Assembly: GCF_000368785.1 (NCBI RefSeq)
Contig: NZ_KB849688.1
Span: 442,849 to 506,848 of the forward strand
Source: Acinetobacter towneri DSM 14962 = CIP 107472
GTDB taxonomy: Bacteria; Pseudomonadota; Gammaproteobacteria; Pseudomonadales; Moraxellaceae
Direction: 5' to 3'
DNA length: 64,000 nucleotides
The notes beneath the pieces were generated by a model. The model was not told the DNA's origin. It did not search any database and worked only from the letters and a program-made list of their open reading frames with translations. Made by a program: the position numbers and the translations under genes. Positions 50,867-55,602 of the stretch are shown here, piece after piece (the stretch's first letter is position 1; each line of letters begins with the position of its first letter).

Positions 50867-50931
50867 TTGATCTACCCTCAATTTTCCCGTATCTTGTGTT
50901 CAATTCAATTTTAAACCACTAAGTCTTGTGT
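50867..50931 (+). promoter_or_regulatory. nrdA promoter overlapped by two NrdR-like boxes
   Basis: TTGATC (50867-50872), a 17-bp spacer, and TATCTT (50890-50895) form a sigma-70 promoter. Two 16-bp sites resembling the NrdR box (ACACWATATATWGTGT) lie at 50884-50899 (TTCCCGTATCTTGTGT, about 10 of 16 positions) and 50916-50931 (CCACTAAGTCTTGTGT, about 12 of 16). They are exactly 32 bp apart, three helical turns. The first covers the -10. NrdR normally uses such a tandem pair to repress nrd genes when dATP is high. Confidence 0.62.
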
Positions 50932-51016
50932 TTATCCCTCAATCACTGCGGCCTAAATTTTGCCCAGTTTAATGGTCCATAAACATAACAATAGATGACA
51001 ATGGAGCTATGCTGAC

Positions 51017-53848
51017 ATGAGCGTAATCACCTCACCCCCTGGTCAATTACAAGTGATTAAACGCACTGGTGATGTTGCCGCTTTTGATGCTGAAAAAATT
51101 GCAGTTGCAATTGGCAAAGCGTTTTTGGCTGTAGAAGGTCAACAAAGCGCCGATTCAAGCCGCATTCATGATCGGATCGAACAACTGACTGAAATGGTGT
51201 TGAACACATTCAACCGCCGTTTACCGTCTGGCGGAACCATTCACATTGAAGAAATTCAAGACCAAGTTGAACTTGCGCTCATGCGTACAGGCGAGCAAAA
51301 AGTTGCTCGTGCTTATGTCATCTACCGTGAACAACGCTCAGAAGCACGTAAGCAAGCAGGTGAAAACCATCACCCAACTTTACAAGTCACTGATGCAAAC
51401 GGTCAGCTTAAACCACTAGATTTAGGTGCTTTAAAAGCAACCGTGAATAAAGCGGCAGAAGGTTTAGAAGGCATTGATGTAGATGCCATCATTGATGAAA
51501 CCGTGAAAAACCTCTACAACGGTGTAAAAGAGTCTGACATCTCAACCACCATGATGATGGCGACCCGTACCCGTATTGAGCAAGAGCCGAACTATACTTA
51601 TGTGACTGCGCGTTTATTGCGTAATGACTTGGTGGCAACAGGTTTAGAGTTTTTAGGTTTAGCAACAGATACACCTGAAGGCGAAGCATTAGAAACTTTC
51701 CTGAAAAAAGGTGTTGAGCTTGATTTGCTTTCTGCAGACTTACTTGAGTTTGACCTTGCCAAACTTGCTGCAGCGATTCAACCTGAGCGCTCAAACCAGT
51801 TTACCTATTTAGGTCTGCAAACCTTATTTGACCGTTATTTCATTCACTCAAATGGCGTACGCTTTGAACTTCCACAATTGTTCTTTATGCGTGTATCAAT
51901 GGGTCTGGCGCTCAATGAAGATGACCGTGAAGCACGTGCAATCGAGTTCTATAACTTATTGTCTAGCTTCGACTACATGGCATCTACGCCTACCCTGTTT
52001 AACTCAGGTACGCTACGCCCACAGTTATCAAGCTGTTACTTAACTACAATTTCCGATGACCTTTACAACATTTATGGCGCAATGCGTGACAACGCAATGC
52101 TGTCTAAATGGGCAGGTGGTTTAGGTAATGACTGGACGCCAGTACGTGCCTTGAACTCCTATATCAAAGGAACTAACGGTAAATCTCAAGGTGTTGTTCC
52201 GTTCCTTAAAGTGGCGAACGATACTGCTGTTGCGGTCAATCAAGGTGGTAAGCGTAAAGGTGCGGTATGTGCGTACTTAGAAACCTGGCACTTAGACATC
52301 GAAGAATTCCTAGAGCTGCGTAAAAACACAGGGGATGACCGTCGTCGTACCCATGATATGAACACAGCCAACTGGGTACCTGACTTGTTCATGCAACGTG
52401 TCTTTGAAGATGCAGAATGGACATTGTTTACGCCATCTGAAACACCAGACCTACACGACTTGACGGGCGAAGCTTTTGCTGAGCGTTATGCGTACTACGA
52501 AAGCATTGCTAAAGAAACTAACATGCTGCATAAAAAACTTCGTGCGAAGGACTTATGGCGCAAAATGTTGTCAATGTTGTTTGAAACAGGTCACCCGTGG
52601 ATCACATTCAAAGACGTATGTAACTTACGTTCACCGCAACAACACGTTGGTGTAGTGCACTCATCTAACTTGTGTACTGAAATTACCCTCAATACTAACC
52701 AAGATGAAATCGCGGTATGTAACTTGGGTTCTATCAACCTTGTACAACACGTTCAAGGTGGTGTGTTAGACCGTGAAAAATTAGCACGTACTATTAAAAC
52801 TGCAGTGCGTATGCTCGACAACGTCATCGACATTAACTACTACGCTGTACCACAAGCACGTAATTCAAACTTGAAACATCGTCCTGTAGGTATGGGAATC
52901 ATGGGCTTCCAAGATGCGCTTTATGAGATGAACTTGGCTTATGGTTCAGATGCTGCAGTTGAATTTGCCGATGAATCTATGGAAGTAATCAGCTACTACG
53001 CGATTCAAACGTCTAGCGACTTGGCGGTTGAGCGTGGTACTTACGAAACATTTAAAGGTTCATTGTGGGATCAAGGTATCTTACCAATTGACTCTTTAGA
53101 CATTGTGGCGAAATCACGTCCAGAACGTATGTTTGAAGTAGATCGTACACAGCGTTTAGATTGGGACAGCTTACGTGCCAAAGTTCAAAAAGACGGTATG
53201 CGTAACTCAAATGTGATGGCGATTGCACCGACTGCAACCATTTCAAATATTTGTGGCGTTTCTCAGTCTATTGAGCCGACATTCCAGAACTTATATGTGA
53301 AGTCGAACTTGTCTGGTGAATTTACAGTAATCAATCCTTACCTTGTTCGTGCATTGAAAGCGCGTGATTTGTGGGATTCTGTAATGGTGAATGACCTGAA
53401 ACACTTTGAAGGTTCAGTACAAAAAATTTCACGTATTCCTGAAGAATTGAAAGCAATTTTCGCGACTGCGTTTGAAGTTGAGCCACGCTGGATTGTAGAT
53501 GCAGCATCACGTCGTCAAAAATGGATTGATCAAGCGCAATCGTTGAACTTGTACATTGCAGGTGCAAACGGTAAGAAACTTGACCTGACTTACAAAATGG
53601 CATGGTTACGTGGTCTGAAAACCACCTACTACCTACGTGCATTAGGTGCGACTTCTGCAGAGAAATCGACTATTAACACGGGCGCATTGAACGCAGTAAA
53701 ACCTGCAACTGTTACGGCAGCACCTGTTGCAGCGGTAGCGCAGGAAATTAAACCTGAAGTTCCTGCAGAGGAAGACGGCTTTGCAAATGCAGCGCCAGTG
53801 CCACAAGCATGCAGCATTGACAACCCTGATTGTGAGGCTTGTCAATAA
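51017..53848 (+). CDS. nrdA: Ribonucleoside-diphosphate reductase class Ia, alpha subunit
   Basis: Reduces ribonucleotides to deoxyribonucleotides with NrdB. The 943-aa protein is longer than E. coli NrdA (761 aa) because two ATP-cone domains precede the barrel: one at ~10-105 (VIKRTGDVAAFDAEKIAVAI) and a second at ~130-205 (LKPLDLGALKATVNKAAEGL, NYTYVTARLL). Such double cones are known in Pseudomonas NrdA, where the first binds dATP/ATP. Active-site parts include SSCYLTT, SNLCTEITLN and AVCNLGSINL, and the C-terminus DCEACQ has the redox-transfer cysteines. GGAG lies 10 nt before ATG. Confidence 0.96.
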   Translation: MSVITSPPGQLQVIKRTGDVAAFDAEKIAVAIGKAFLAVEGQQSADSSRIHDRIEQLTEMVLNTFNRRLPSGGTIHIEEIQDQVELALMRTGEQKVARAYVIYREQRSEARKQAGENHHPTLQVTDANGQLKPLDLGALKATVNKAAEGLEGIDVDAIIDETVKNLYNGVKESDISTTMMMATRTRIEQEPNYTYVTARLLRNDLVATGLEFLGLATDTPEGEALETFLKKGVELDLLSADLLEFDLAKLAAAIQPERSNQFTYLGLQTLFDRYFIHSNGVRFELPQLFFMRVSMGLALNEDDREARAIEFYNLLSSFDYMASTPTLFNSGTLRPQLSSCYLTTISDDLYNIYGAMRDNAMLSKWAGGLGNDWTPVRALNSYIKGTNGKSQGVVPFLKVANDTAVAVNQGGKRKGAVCAYLETWHLDIEEFLELRKNTGDDRRRTHDMNTANWVPDLFMQRVFEDAEWTLFTPSETPDLHDLTGEAFAERYAYYESIAKETNMLHKKLRAKDLWRKMLSMLFETGHPWITFKDVCNLRSPQQHVGVVHSSNLCTEITLNTNQDEIAVCNLGSINLVQHVQGGVLDREKLARTIKTAVRMLDNVIDINYYAVPQARNSNLKHRPVGMGIMGFQDALYEMNLAYGSDAAVEFADESMEVISYYAIQTSSDLAVERGTYETFKGSLWDQGILPIDSLDIVAKSRPERMFEVDRTQRLDWDSLRAKVQKDGMRNSNVMAIAPTATISNICGVSQSIEPTFQNLYVKSNLSGEFTVINPYLVRALKARDLWDSVMVNDLKHFEGSVQKISRIPEELKAIFATAFEVEPRWIVDAASRRQKWIDQAQSLNLYIAGANGKKLDLTYKMAWLRGLKTTYYLRALGATSAEKSTINTGALNAVKPATVTAAPVAAVAQEIKPEVPAEEDGFANAAPVPQACSIDNPDCEACQ

Positions 53849-53959
53849 ATGACTATTCCATATTTTCTTGTACTACTTATTGTAATTTTATTATTGATAG
53901 TATTATTCATGGCAGTATTTACCGCCTTAATAGTTGCTATCAAAGGCGATGAGAAATAG
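53849..53959 (+). CDS. Candidate 36-aa membrane microprotein between nrdA and nrdB
   Basis: The ATG begins on the base after the nrdA stop (TAAATG). The 36-aa product starts MTIPYFLVLLIVILLL, is almost wholly hydrophobic up to residue 31 and ends IKGDEK, i.e. a single TM helix with a polar tail. Translation could be coupled to nrdA; a GAGG lies 12 nt upstream. Its role is unknown and expression is not proven. It may simply be a chance ORF, but its position and composition argue otherwise. Confidence 0.5.
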   Translation: MTIPYFLVLLIVILLLIVLFMAVFTALIVAIKGDEK

Positions 53960-53971
53960 TAAACATATTTT

Positions 53972-53999
53972 ATCCATGCATGATTAATCATGCATGGAT
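53972..53999. promoter_or_regulatory. 28-bp perfect palindrome between nrdA and nrdB
   Basis: ATCCATGCATGATT (53972-53985) is followed directly by its exact inverse (53986-53999), with TTTT upstream and TTAG downstream. As RNA it forms a long hairpin that may partly terminate or stabilise the nrdA transcript; as DNA it could be an operator. Confidence 0.6.
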
Positions 54000-54044
54000 T
54001 TAGTACAAGAAAATGGATTGTTAAATTAATAAGGAAACCACTAC

Positions 54045-54179
54045 ATGCCACACATGACCCACAACTATATGTTAGGACTCGCGGTCTTGCTGGTTTCCTT
54101 TGTAGTGTTGTTTTACGCACCAATTGCTTACTTTTGGGTACAAGCGGCAAAACAACAGCGAAAGCAAAATAAGTCGTGA
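54045..54179 (+). CDS. Candidate 44-aa single-TM microprotein before nrdB
   Basis: ATG 54045 has a good ribosome site (AAGGA at 54031-54035, 9 nt away). The product starts MPHMTHNYMLGLAVLLV, has one TM helix (residues ~8-32, ending YAPIAYFW) and a basic tail rich in Gln and Lys (AAKQQRKQNKS). It fits the pattern of bitopic small membrane proteins. It lies 139 bp before nrdB in the same direction. An internal ATG at 54054 could be the start instead. Function unknown. Confidence 0.6.
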   Translation: MPHMTHNYMLGLAVLLVSFVVLFYAPIAYFWVQAAKQQRKQNKS

Positions 54180-54318
54180 GCACATTGGTCGGAATGTACA
54201 TTTTTCAGACCAAGATGAGCAAAACTTAATTTTGCTTTCACAAATTAAGCGTATATTAAGACATCTCAGCGTAGCTGGATGTCCATAAAAGATATAAAGC
54301 AACGAAGAGAGAATTGAT

Positions 54319-55602
54319 ATGTCTATCCTAAGTTGGGACGATTTCGAAGATGATTCGCAAAAACCGGCTGCTCCTGAACACAAGTCTGCGCCCGTCGAGC
54401 CGCAAAAAGCGCATGATACGCAGATGGTATCTCATGCAGAGCAACCACAGACGCCTGTGGCAGCTGCACAACCCGCTGCAGCCCCTAGAAGTAGAGCAAC
54501 AGATTCAACCGATCCGTTGGCAAGAGCATCTAACGCTCTAGATCAATTGGACGTTGCACCTGGTCTTGAAGAACTAGAAATGGGTGCATCTCGCGTACAG
54601 GTTGATGATAAAGCCATGATCAACTGTCGTGCAGACTTAAACCAGCTTGTACCGTTCAAATACGAATGGGCATGGCAAAAATATCTAGATGGTTGTGCAA
54701 ACCACTGGATGCCGCAAGAAGTGAACATGAACCACGACATCGCGTTGTGGAAGTCTGAAAATGGTTTAACTGAAGATGAGCGCACCATTGTTATGCGTTC
54801 ACTTGGTTTCTTCTCTACTGCAGACTCATTGGTTGCTAATAACTTGGTATTGGCTATTTATCGCCACATTACCAACCCAGAATGCCGCCAGTACATTTTG
54901 CGTCAAGCCTTTGAAGAAGCGATTCACACTCACGCTTACCAGTACTGTATTGAATCGTTAGGTATGGATGAAGGCGAAGTCTTCAATATGTACCGCGAAG
55001 TACCATCGGTTGCGCGTAAAGCAGCATGGGGCTTGAAGTATACGCAATCTTTAAGTGATCCTACTTTCAAAACAGGTACACCAGAAAACGACCAAATTTT
55101 GCTACGCAACTTAATCGCATTCTATTGTGTACTTGAAGGTATTTTCTTCTACTGCGGTTTCAGCCAAATCTTGTCGATGGGTCGTCGTAACAAAATGAAC
55201 GGTGTTGCAGAGCAATTCCAGTACATTTTACGTGATGAATCTATGCACTTGAACTTTGGTATCGACATGATTAACCAAATCAAGATTGAGAACCCGCACT
55301 TGTGGACTTCAGAATTCCAGCAAGAAGTGATTCAAATGATTCTTGAAGGCACGATGCTTGAAATTGAATATGCGCGTGACACTATGCCACGTGGTGTGTT
55401 GGGCATGAATGCAGGTATGATGGAAGAATATTTGAAATTCATCTGTAACCGTCGTTTAAGTCAGCTCGGTTTACCTGAACAGTTTGTTGGCGTAAACAAC
55501 CCGTTCCAATGGATGTCTGAAATGATGGACTTGCGTAAAGAGAAGAACTTCTTTGAAACGCGTGTGACCGATTACCAGACTGGCGGTGCATTGAGCTGGT
55601 AA
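54319..55602 (+). CDS. nrdB: Ribonucleoside-diphosphate reductase class Ia, beta subunit
   Basis: Carries the di-iron/tyrosyl radical cofactor that starts the radical chain in NrdA. The 427-aa protein has the ferritin-like core from ~95 onward, with metal ligands in STADSLV (Asp), EEAIHTHAY (Glu-x-x-His) and [11 protein letters not shown] (Glu-x-x-His), and the C-terminal peptide that docks on NrdA. About 80 N-terminal residues are Pro/Ala/Gln-rich and probably disordered, an extension absent from E. coli NrdB. AAGAGAG precedes ATG 54319. The 470-bp distance to nrdA is unusually large. Confidence 0.95.

Follow-up and report, generated by a model that had tools for sequence, protein, structure and literature searches.

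A conserved gene for a small, predicted single-span membrane protein between nrdA and nrdB of Acinetobacter

In a 64,000-nucleotide stretch of the genome of Acinetobacter towneri DSM 14962 = CIP 107472 (contig NZ_KB849688.1), termed here the window, the ribonucleotide reductase genes nrdA and nrdB are separated by an intergenic gap of 470 bp, which raises the question of what this gap encodes and what its product might do. The initial annotation, made from the sequence alone, placed two microproteins of 36 and 44 residues in the gap, assigned a single transmembrane helix to the latter, and regarded the gap as otherwise unexplained. The features recognized are collected in Table 1. Among the named loci compared, the nearest NrdA and NrdB to those of the window belong to Acinetobacter sp. 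A2, and across the loci L001-L047 the NrdA proteins share 82-98% identity with the window NrdA in 46 of 47, the only locus without a NrdA match being L017. The 44-aa gene has been annotated in at least one strain, yet it has neither a family (Pfam, NCBIfam, PHROGs, PDB) nor a published function in the parts of the literature covered.

Table 1. Features of the nrdA-nrdB region, in window coordinates
Feature	Position	Strand	Basis
nrdA, large subunit of class I ribonucleotide reductase	51017..53848	+	ORF list
36-aa hydrophobic ORF, lineage-specific, directly after the nrdA stop (TAAATG)	53849..53959	+	ORF list
12-bp stem-loop between nrdA and the 44-aa ORF, no T-run after it	53972..53999	+	folding
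AAGGA, ribosome-binding-site-like stretch	54031..54035	+	read from sequence; similar stretches before relatives
Gene for the 44-aa single-span membrane protein (ATG at 54045; last base of the stop at 54179)	54045..54179	+	ORF, homology, selection, structure prediction
Conserved promoter-like block TTAATTTTGCTT...GCGTATATT before nrdB	54226..54257	+	alignments; promoter role inferred
Hairpin GACATCT/GGATGTC, presumed nrdB leader	54260..54283	+	alignment pairing
nrdB, small subunit	54319..55602	+	ORF list, relatives found

The 44-aa ORF is a real protein-coding gene. The search of the genus that the initial annotation had suggested found it ahead of nrdB in 41 of the 47 named loci (39 of 45 from Acinetobacter, together with L046 and L047), and nrdA was found before it in 40 of these 41, the exception being L017. 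A profile, termed A1, was prepared from an alignment of 42 relatives (42 rows), which were picked with a motif pattern that favors conserved members; the genus search with A1 is hence not independent of this choice, and it matched 161 of 175 Acinetobacter genomes at E<=4.5e-16. Seven further genomes (G005, G009, G071, G077, G085, G147, and G148) were matched only weakly, with E values of 2e-5 to 0.081, and the last seven (G003, G078, G080, G101, G130, G149, and G154) gave no match at E<=0.1. An independent single-sequence search reached 168 of the 175 genomes at E<=1, several of them weakly.

The median dN/dS was 0.217 in frame, and all 556 pairs kept were below 1, the set being limited to pairs with dS of 0.2-2 and pairs outside this range being dropped. 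In a frame-shift control with 12 codons per ORF, dN/dS amounted to 0.23 in frame versus 0.65 and 1.83 in the shifted frames, which demonstrates that selection operates on the amino acids; the mean entropies at codon positions 1, 2, and 3 were 0.80, 0.46, and 1.20, respectively. Such frame-specific purifying selection across species is the mark of a conserved protein-coding gene. The AAGGA stretch, previously described as well placed, precedes the ATG by 9 nt, and an AGG occurs within 22 nt upstream of each of the 39 Acinetobacter ORFs listed, lying very close to the start codon chosen in L004. Many mechanical ORFs of similar size are present in the region, which might suggest a chance ORF, but genus-wide conservation, frame-specific constraint, and the conserved start and ribosome site rule out this explanation, whose probability is practically negligible.

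Beyond the genus, all four genomes of a sister genus matched A1 (E 2.7e-18 to 6.6e-16), and this genus is taken to be Alkanindiges because the gene is present at L046, a named Alkanindiges locus. Another 169 genomes of the family yielded 24 matches, only at E 0.0039 to 0.1, so that strong matches are confined to Acinetobacter and one sister genus among the 16 family genera searched. At the order level, 8 of 293 genomes were matched at E<=0.01, and only the window genome and a decayed copy in G147 scored better than E 0.003. A phage or plasmid origin was also considered and rejected, since none of 81 viral stretches that fit a pattern was confirmed as a relative and no match at E<=0.01 was obtained on 72,556 plasmid records.

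The position relative to nrdA varies. In L046 and L047, the nrdA stop and the start codon of the ORF share bases (TAATG); the distance from nrdA to the ORF start is 53-74 nt in 15 of the 40 loci measured and larger elsewhere, up to 655 nt, with seven of the 40 at 344-655 nt, mostly with inserted ORFs between. In a tree of NrdA fragments, which left out L017 (nrdA was not found there) and in which several rows are identical pairs, Alkanindiges stands outside Acinetobacter and possesses the ORF. The ORF is thus an old, vertically kept gene that was tied to nrdA before the split of Acinetobacter and Alkanindiges. It is absent from an early clade whose 12 rows include several identical pairs (support 93/78), from the A. 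boissieri clade of five rows including G003 (support 100/97), and from the pair G148-G149 (support 100/99), and G147 constitutes a further lineage without an intact ORF, in which the copy is decayed and contains a stop (E 2e-5). By reading of the tree rather than by a computed count, at least three losses occurred and four are likelier, the minimum being three because the fork that holds the A. boissieri clade and G148-G149 is open. The gene is therefore dispensable, and all 14 of the 175 genus genomes without an intact ORF keep nrdA with nrdB behind it, nrdB being detected by a pattern search.

The presence of the ORF had also been linked to gap length. Near relatives of the window do carry it, although two ORF-less loci, L038 and L039, have gaps (332 and 322 bp) that equal in length those of some ORF-bearing species such as L006 (324 bp) and L033 (330 bp). 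In L038 and L039, an apparent remnant of the 3' end of the ORF is discernible by eye. The ORF-less genomes, all of which belong to other lineages than the near relatives of the window, are read as probable losses.

The predicted product contains one hydrophobic span followed by a tail in which four residues are basic (K36, R39, K40, and K43), and AlphaFold2 returned a single helix covering residues 2-43 (mean pLDDT 87, pTM 0.48), so the description as one transmembrane helix with a basic tail has been borne out. With 44 residues and one predicted helix, it qualifies as a small single-span membrane protein, the membrane placement being deduced from hydrophobicity. Across the 42 sequences, Y8, G11, P26, and Y29 are invariant and N7, L15, F19, F23, and Y24 nearly so. 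Under the positive-inside rule, the basic flank of a span resides on the cytoplasmic side; as the window protein has no lysine or arginine before the span and four behind it, an N-out, C-in topology is suggested. The Acinetobacter members shown have the basic tail, but in L046 and L047 it is not basic overall, which indicates that conservation resides in the helix. The conservation signal is strongest at a periodicity of 100 degrees, as for one face, but this pattern did not exceed chance (permutation p = 0.12) and was discarded.

No known family in the libraries searched accounts for the protein. The window protein stayed below the Pfam and NCBIfam cut-offs (best 13.2 bits against 29.4 and 15.8 bits against 200, respectively), the other 41 members reached E 0.0055 and 0.0017 at best, and no match was found in the PDB. 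Six of the 42 members touch phrog_17522, the function of which is not known (best E 1.6e-4), and no PHROG match was convincing. The CoxB and YajC models are touched by ten (best E 0.0076) and five (best E 0.029) of the 42 members, respectively. These contacts could be consistent with a passenger, namely a small subunit or stabilizer of a membrane complex such as an oxidase, transporter, or translocase that merely shares the nrdA transcript, and small single-span subunits of membrane complexes are indeed common. Nevertheless, matches this weak are typical of hydrophobic helices and no gene for a membrane partner adjoins the ORF; oxidase small subunits of the CydX or CcoQ kind are encoded together with oxidase genes, whereas the neighbors here are nrdA and nrdB. 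A passenger is accordingly regarded as unlikely, albeit credible. The small size and hydrophobicity would also suit a type I toxin or a pore-forming peptide of such a toxin-antitoxin system. Toxins of this type are paired with an antisense RNA and are often mobile or repeated. This reading is very unlikely in view of the vertical, genus-wide inheritance at a fixed place between nrdA and nrdB, the strong purifying selection, the detection of only a tRNA among Rfam families in the window, and the negative search of plasmid records, although an antisense RNA of an undescribed type may be present.

The constant location invites a direct action on ribonucleotide reductase, in which the protein would tether NrdA or NrdB to the membrane or tune the enzyme activity through the basic tail. 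The ORF has been kept between the two genes throughout the genus and in Alkanindiges despite inserted ORFs on either side, and the Acinetobacter members shown retain the tail. On the other hand, reductase subunits are soluble, the conserved core is the helix rather than the tail, which is not kept in L046 and L047, and the 14 genomes mentioned above maintain both reductase genes without an intact ORF. Such a direct action therefore seems rather unlikely.

The view that the gap is otherwise unexplained is not supported, because it also holds a stem-loop ahead of the ORF and a promoter-like block with a hairpin behind it. In the window, the segment 53960-54044, which holds the 12-bp stem, folds with a z of -4.56. 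In 27 of 32 gaps, the interval from nrdA to the ORF is more stably folded than its shuffles (z<-2), compared with 5 of 32 for a control composed of equal lengths of the 3' end of nrdA itself; this test covered 32 of the 40 ORF-bearing Acinetobacter sequences (39 named loci and the window), with seven gaps longer than 200 nt and L017 excluded. The recurrent stem-loop differs in sequence among the loci. A classic terminator after nrdA was sought and dismissed for the window, where the scan listed none and no T-run follows the stem; inspection by eye shows a stem with TTTTG behind it after nrdA in L020.

On the other side, a promoter-like block, TTAATTTTGCTTACACA...GCGTATAGT, together with a hairpin, GACATCT/AGATGTC, lies ahead of nrdB in 27 aligned sequences drawn from loci without an insert behind the ORF. 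In the wider set, the block was not seen right before nrdB in the insert-bearing L002, L009, L010, L020, L021, and L027, nor in L044, L046, L047, and the ORF-less L037, L041, and L042. The 7-bp hairpin is paired in 98.4% of 182 cells over 26 distinct sequences, with one pair changed on both sides, and its score was reached by 24 of 500 shuffles, which renders its support modest. We take the block to be the probable promoter of nrdB itself; a promoter consensus scan of the window did not list the block (54226-54257) but returned a weak site at the end of nrdA (53839-53866), its hits being no more numerous than in shuffles (5 against 8.6 expected). In the segment 54260-54323, the 5' arm GACAT of the hairpin could also pair with AUGUC at the nrdB start codon, and the nrdB leader might switch structures, as judged from the own fold of the window. 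Since the ORF is set among RNA structures, it could be a cis-acting leader whose translation tunes the nrdA or nrdB mRNA while the peptide itself is irrelevant. Selection on the amino acids and the promoter-like block standing between the ORF and nrdB both argue against such a leader, which is considered very unlikely.

The gene has been annotated and its RNA measured before, and in the sources available in part it is uncharacterized in function. The literature searched names it only via its place, as a table line without a function: A1S_3563 of A. baumannii ATCC 17978, tabulated as "hypothetical; between nrdA and nrdB", was induced by mitomycin in a ddrR mutant and not in the wild type (PMC7273328). 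In A. baylyi, mitomycin raised nrdA 7.0-fold and nrdB 5.4-fold, for which neither recA nor umuDAb was needed, and the ADP1 numbering assigns ACIAD0722 to nrdB and ACIAD0724 to nrdA (PMC3978071). One number is left between the two, so ACIAD0723 is the apparent counterpart, although this string was not found in the literature searched. A1S_3563, whose stated place is that of the 44-aa ORF, and ACIAD0723 are very probably orthologues of the ORF, as judged from gene place and numbering. The accessible portions of PMC5094136 and PMC4201530 offered no useful passage on nrd terms.

Taken together, the role that we tentatively propose, with somewhat less than even confidence, is that of a single-span regulator that is produced from the nrdA transcript and targets a membrane partner when replication is stressed or DNA is damaged. 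The ORF would be translated from the nrdA transcript beyond the stem-loop, as is suggested by the start overlap in Alkanindiges, the spacing of 53-74 nt in 15 of 40 loci, and the position upstream of the promoter-like block of nrdB. If so, its production would follow that of nrdA and thus occur when dNTP demand is high and when DNA has been damaged. The protein would sit N-out and C-in with the basic tail in the cytoplasm, the conserved helix (Y8, G11, F19, F23-Y24, P26, and Y29) would contact an integral membrane partner or itself, and the protein would regulate a membrane process under stress without being essential; for this process cell division or envelope control is a first guess.

This proposal is further favored by pairs of T[CA]TTGTG boxes before nrdA, which resemble NrdR boxes, as well as by the mitomycin induction of nrdA and nrdB and the induction of A1S_3563 in the ddrR mutant. 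In the window, two TCTTGTG boxes stand 32 bp apart (50892 and 50924; region 50890-50932), and such pairs occur in 19 of 23 readable loci, the other four, all ORF-less, showing one box. Against it, the weak site at the end of nrdA could serve the gap by itself, and co-transcription is less sure where the ORF is 344-655 nt behind nrdA. Moreover, the regulation of A1S_3563 may differ from that of nrdA, because the gene was not induced in wild-type 17978 and the ddrR table names nrdA and nrdB only to place it (PMC7273328).

A more specific version of the proposed regulator would be a membrane checkpoint. SidA of Caulobacter is a small single-span division inhibitor made upon DNA damage, and DidA (Caulobacter), YneA (Bacillus), and SosA (Staphylococcus) are likewise described as small damage-made membrane proteins that block division. 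Inhibitors like SidA, DidA, and YneA act through a divisome protein such as FtsW; the genes occupy other genomic places than the 44-aa ORF, and the likeness noted is one of description. By analogy with SidA and DidA, the protein might be produced with the reductase at DNA damage or dNTP shortage and restrain division or envelope growth, which we consider doubtful. The proposed regulatory role is opposed by the loss of the ORF in at least three lineages and by AciT, which already holds the proposed role of SulA in Acinetobacter. AciT (ABUW_0098, A1S_3385) is a membrane protein that the genus conserves well and that responds to a DNA-damaging drug by induction; it is required for filamentation under ciprofloxacin and has been proposed as the SulA equivalent (PMC8316044); A1S_3385 is listed in the same ddrR table as A1S_3563 (PMC7273328). 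In contrast with the 44-aa protein, which has one helix and strong matches only in Acinetobacter and the sister genus, AciT has three predicted transmembrane helices, another locus, and a wide distribution in Moraxellaceae (PMC8316044). The A. baylyi genome is reported to have no sulA (PMC3978071). A checkpoint, if true, would act in bacteria that lack LexA and SulA. In any case, a tiny gene that most of a genus retains next to the gene of a central enzyme of DNA synthesis, where LexA and SulA are reported absent, is a concrete candidate link of dNTP supply, DNA damage, and the membrane, and one that can readily be deleted.

Of the two microproteins annotated, both ORFs exist and the 44-aa one is genuine, but they do not form a conserved pair. 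The 36-aa ORF had no relative in 98 other genus genomes (1 of 99, the window's own), and L001 and L082-L084 carry something else at its place. Transmembrane peptides of 25-37 aa whose start codons lie no more than 13 nt from the nrdA stop were noticed in 5 of 80 other Acinetobacter gaps (L020, L030, L082, L108, and L111; the L082 peptide barely passes the hydropathy cut), that is, in 6 of 81 with the window included, where some loci, such as L001 and L083 with their similar-looking gaps, may be one genome twice. The L020 and L111 peptides are alike and the others mostly unlike in sequence, and these peptides may be a fast-changing class or chance. The pair was rejected as a sequence family for lack of relatives, and only a loose grouping by position was retained.

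With small cargo genes present before or after the 44-aa ORF, the gap between nrdA and nrdB resembles a hotspot for insertions. The grouping of this cargo beyond one scanned protein per kind was performed by eye. ORFs of 150-159 aa are found in L009, L021, and L027, and MS[KN]KLKxF proteins in L008, L087, L109, and L118, the one protein scanned of each kind having no Pfam match. Cas2-like cargo is seen in L002, L091, L094, and L010 (the L002 protein matched PF09827 at 3.5e-6), and DUF2188 cargo in L093, L095, L102, and L103 (one scanned, 4.2e-16). In L144 (G149), which is devoid of the 44-aa ORF, an Abi_2 abortive-infection-like gene (PF07751, E 1.6e-50) begins 4 nt behind nrdA.
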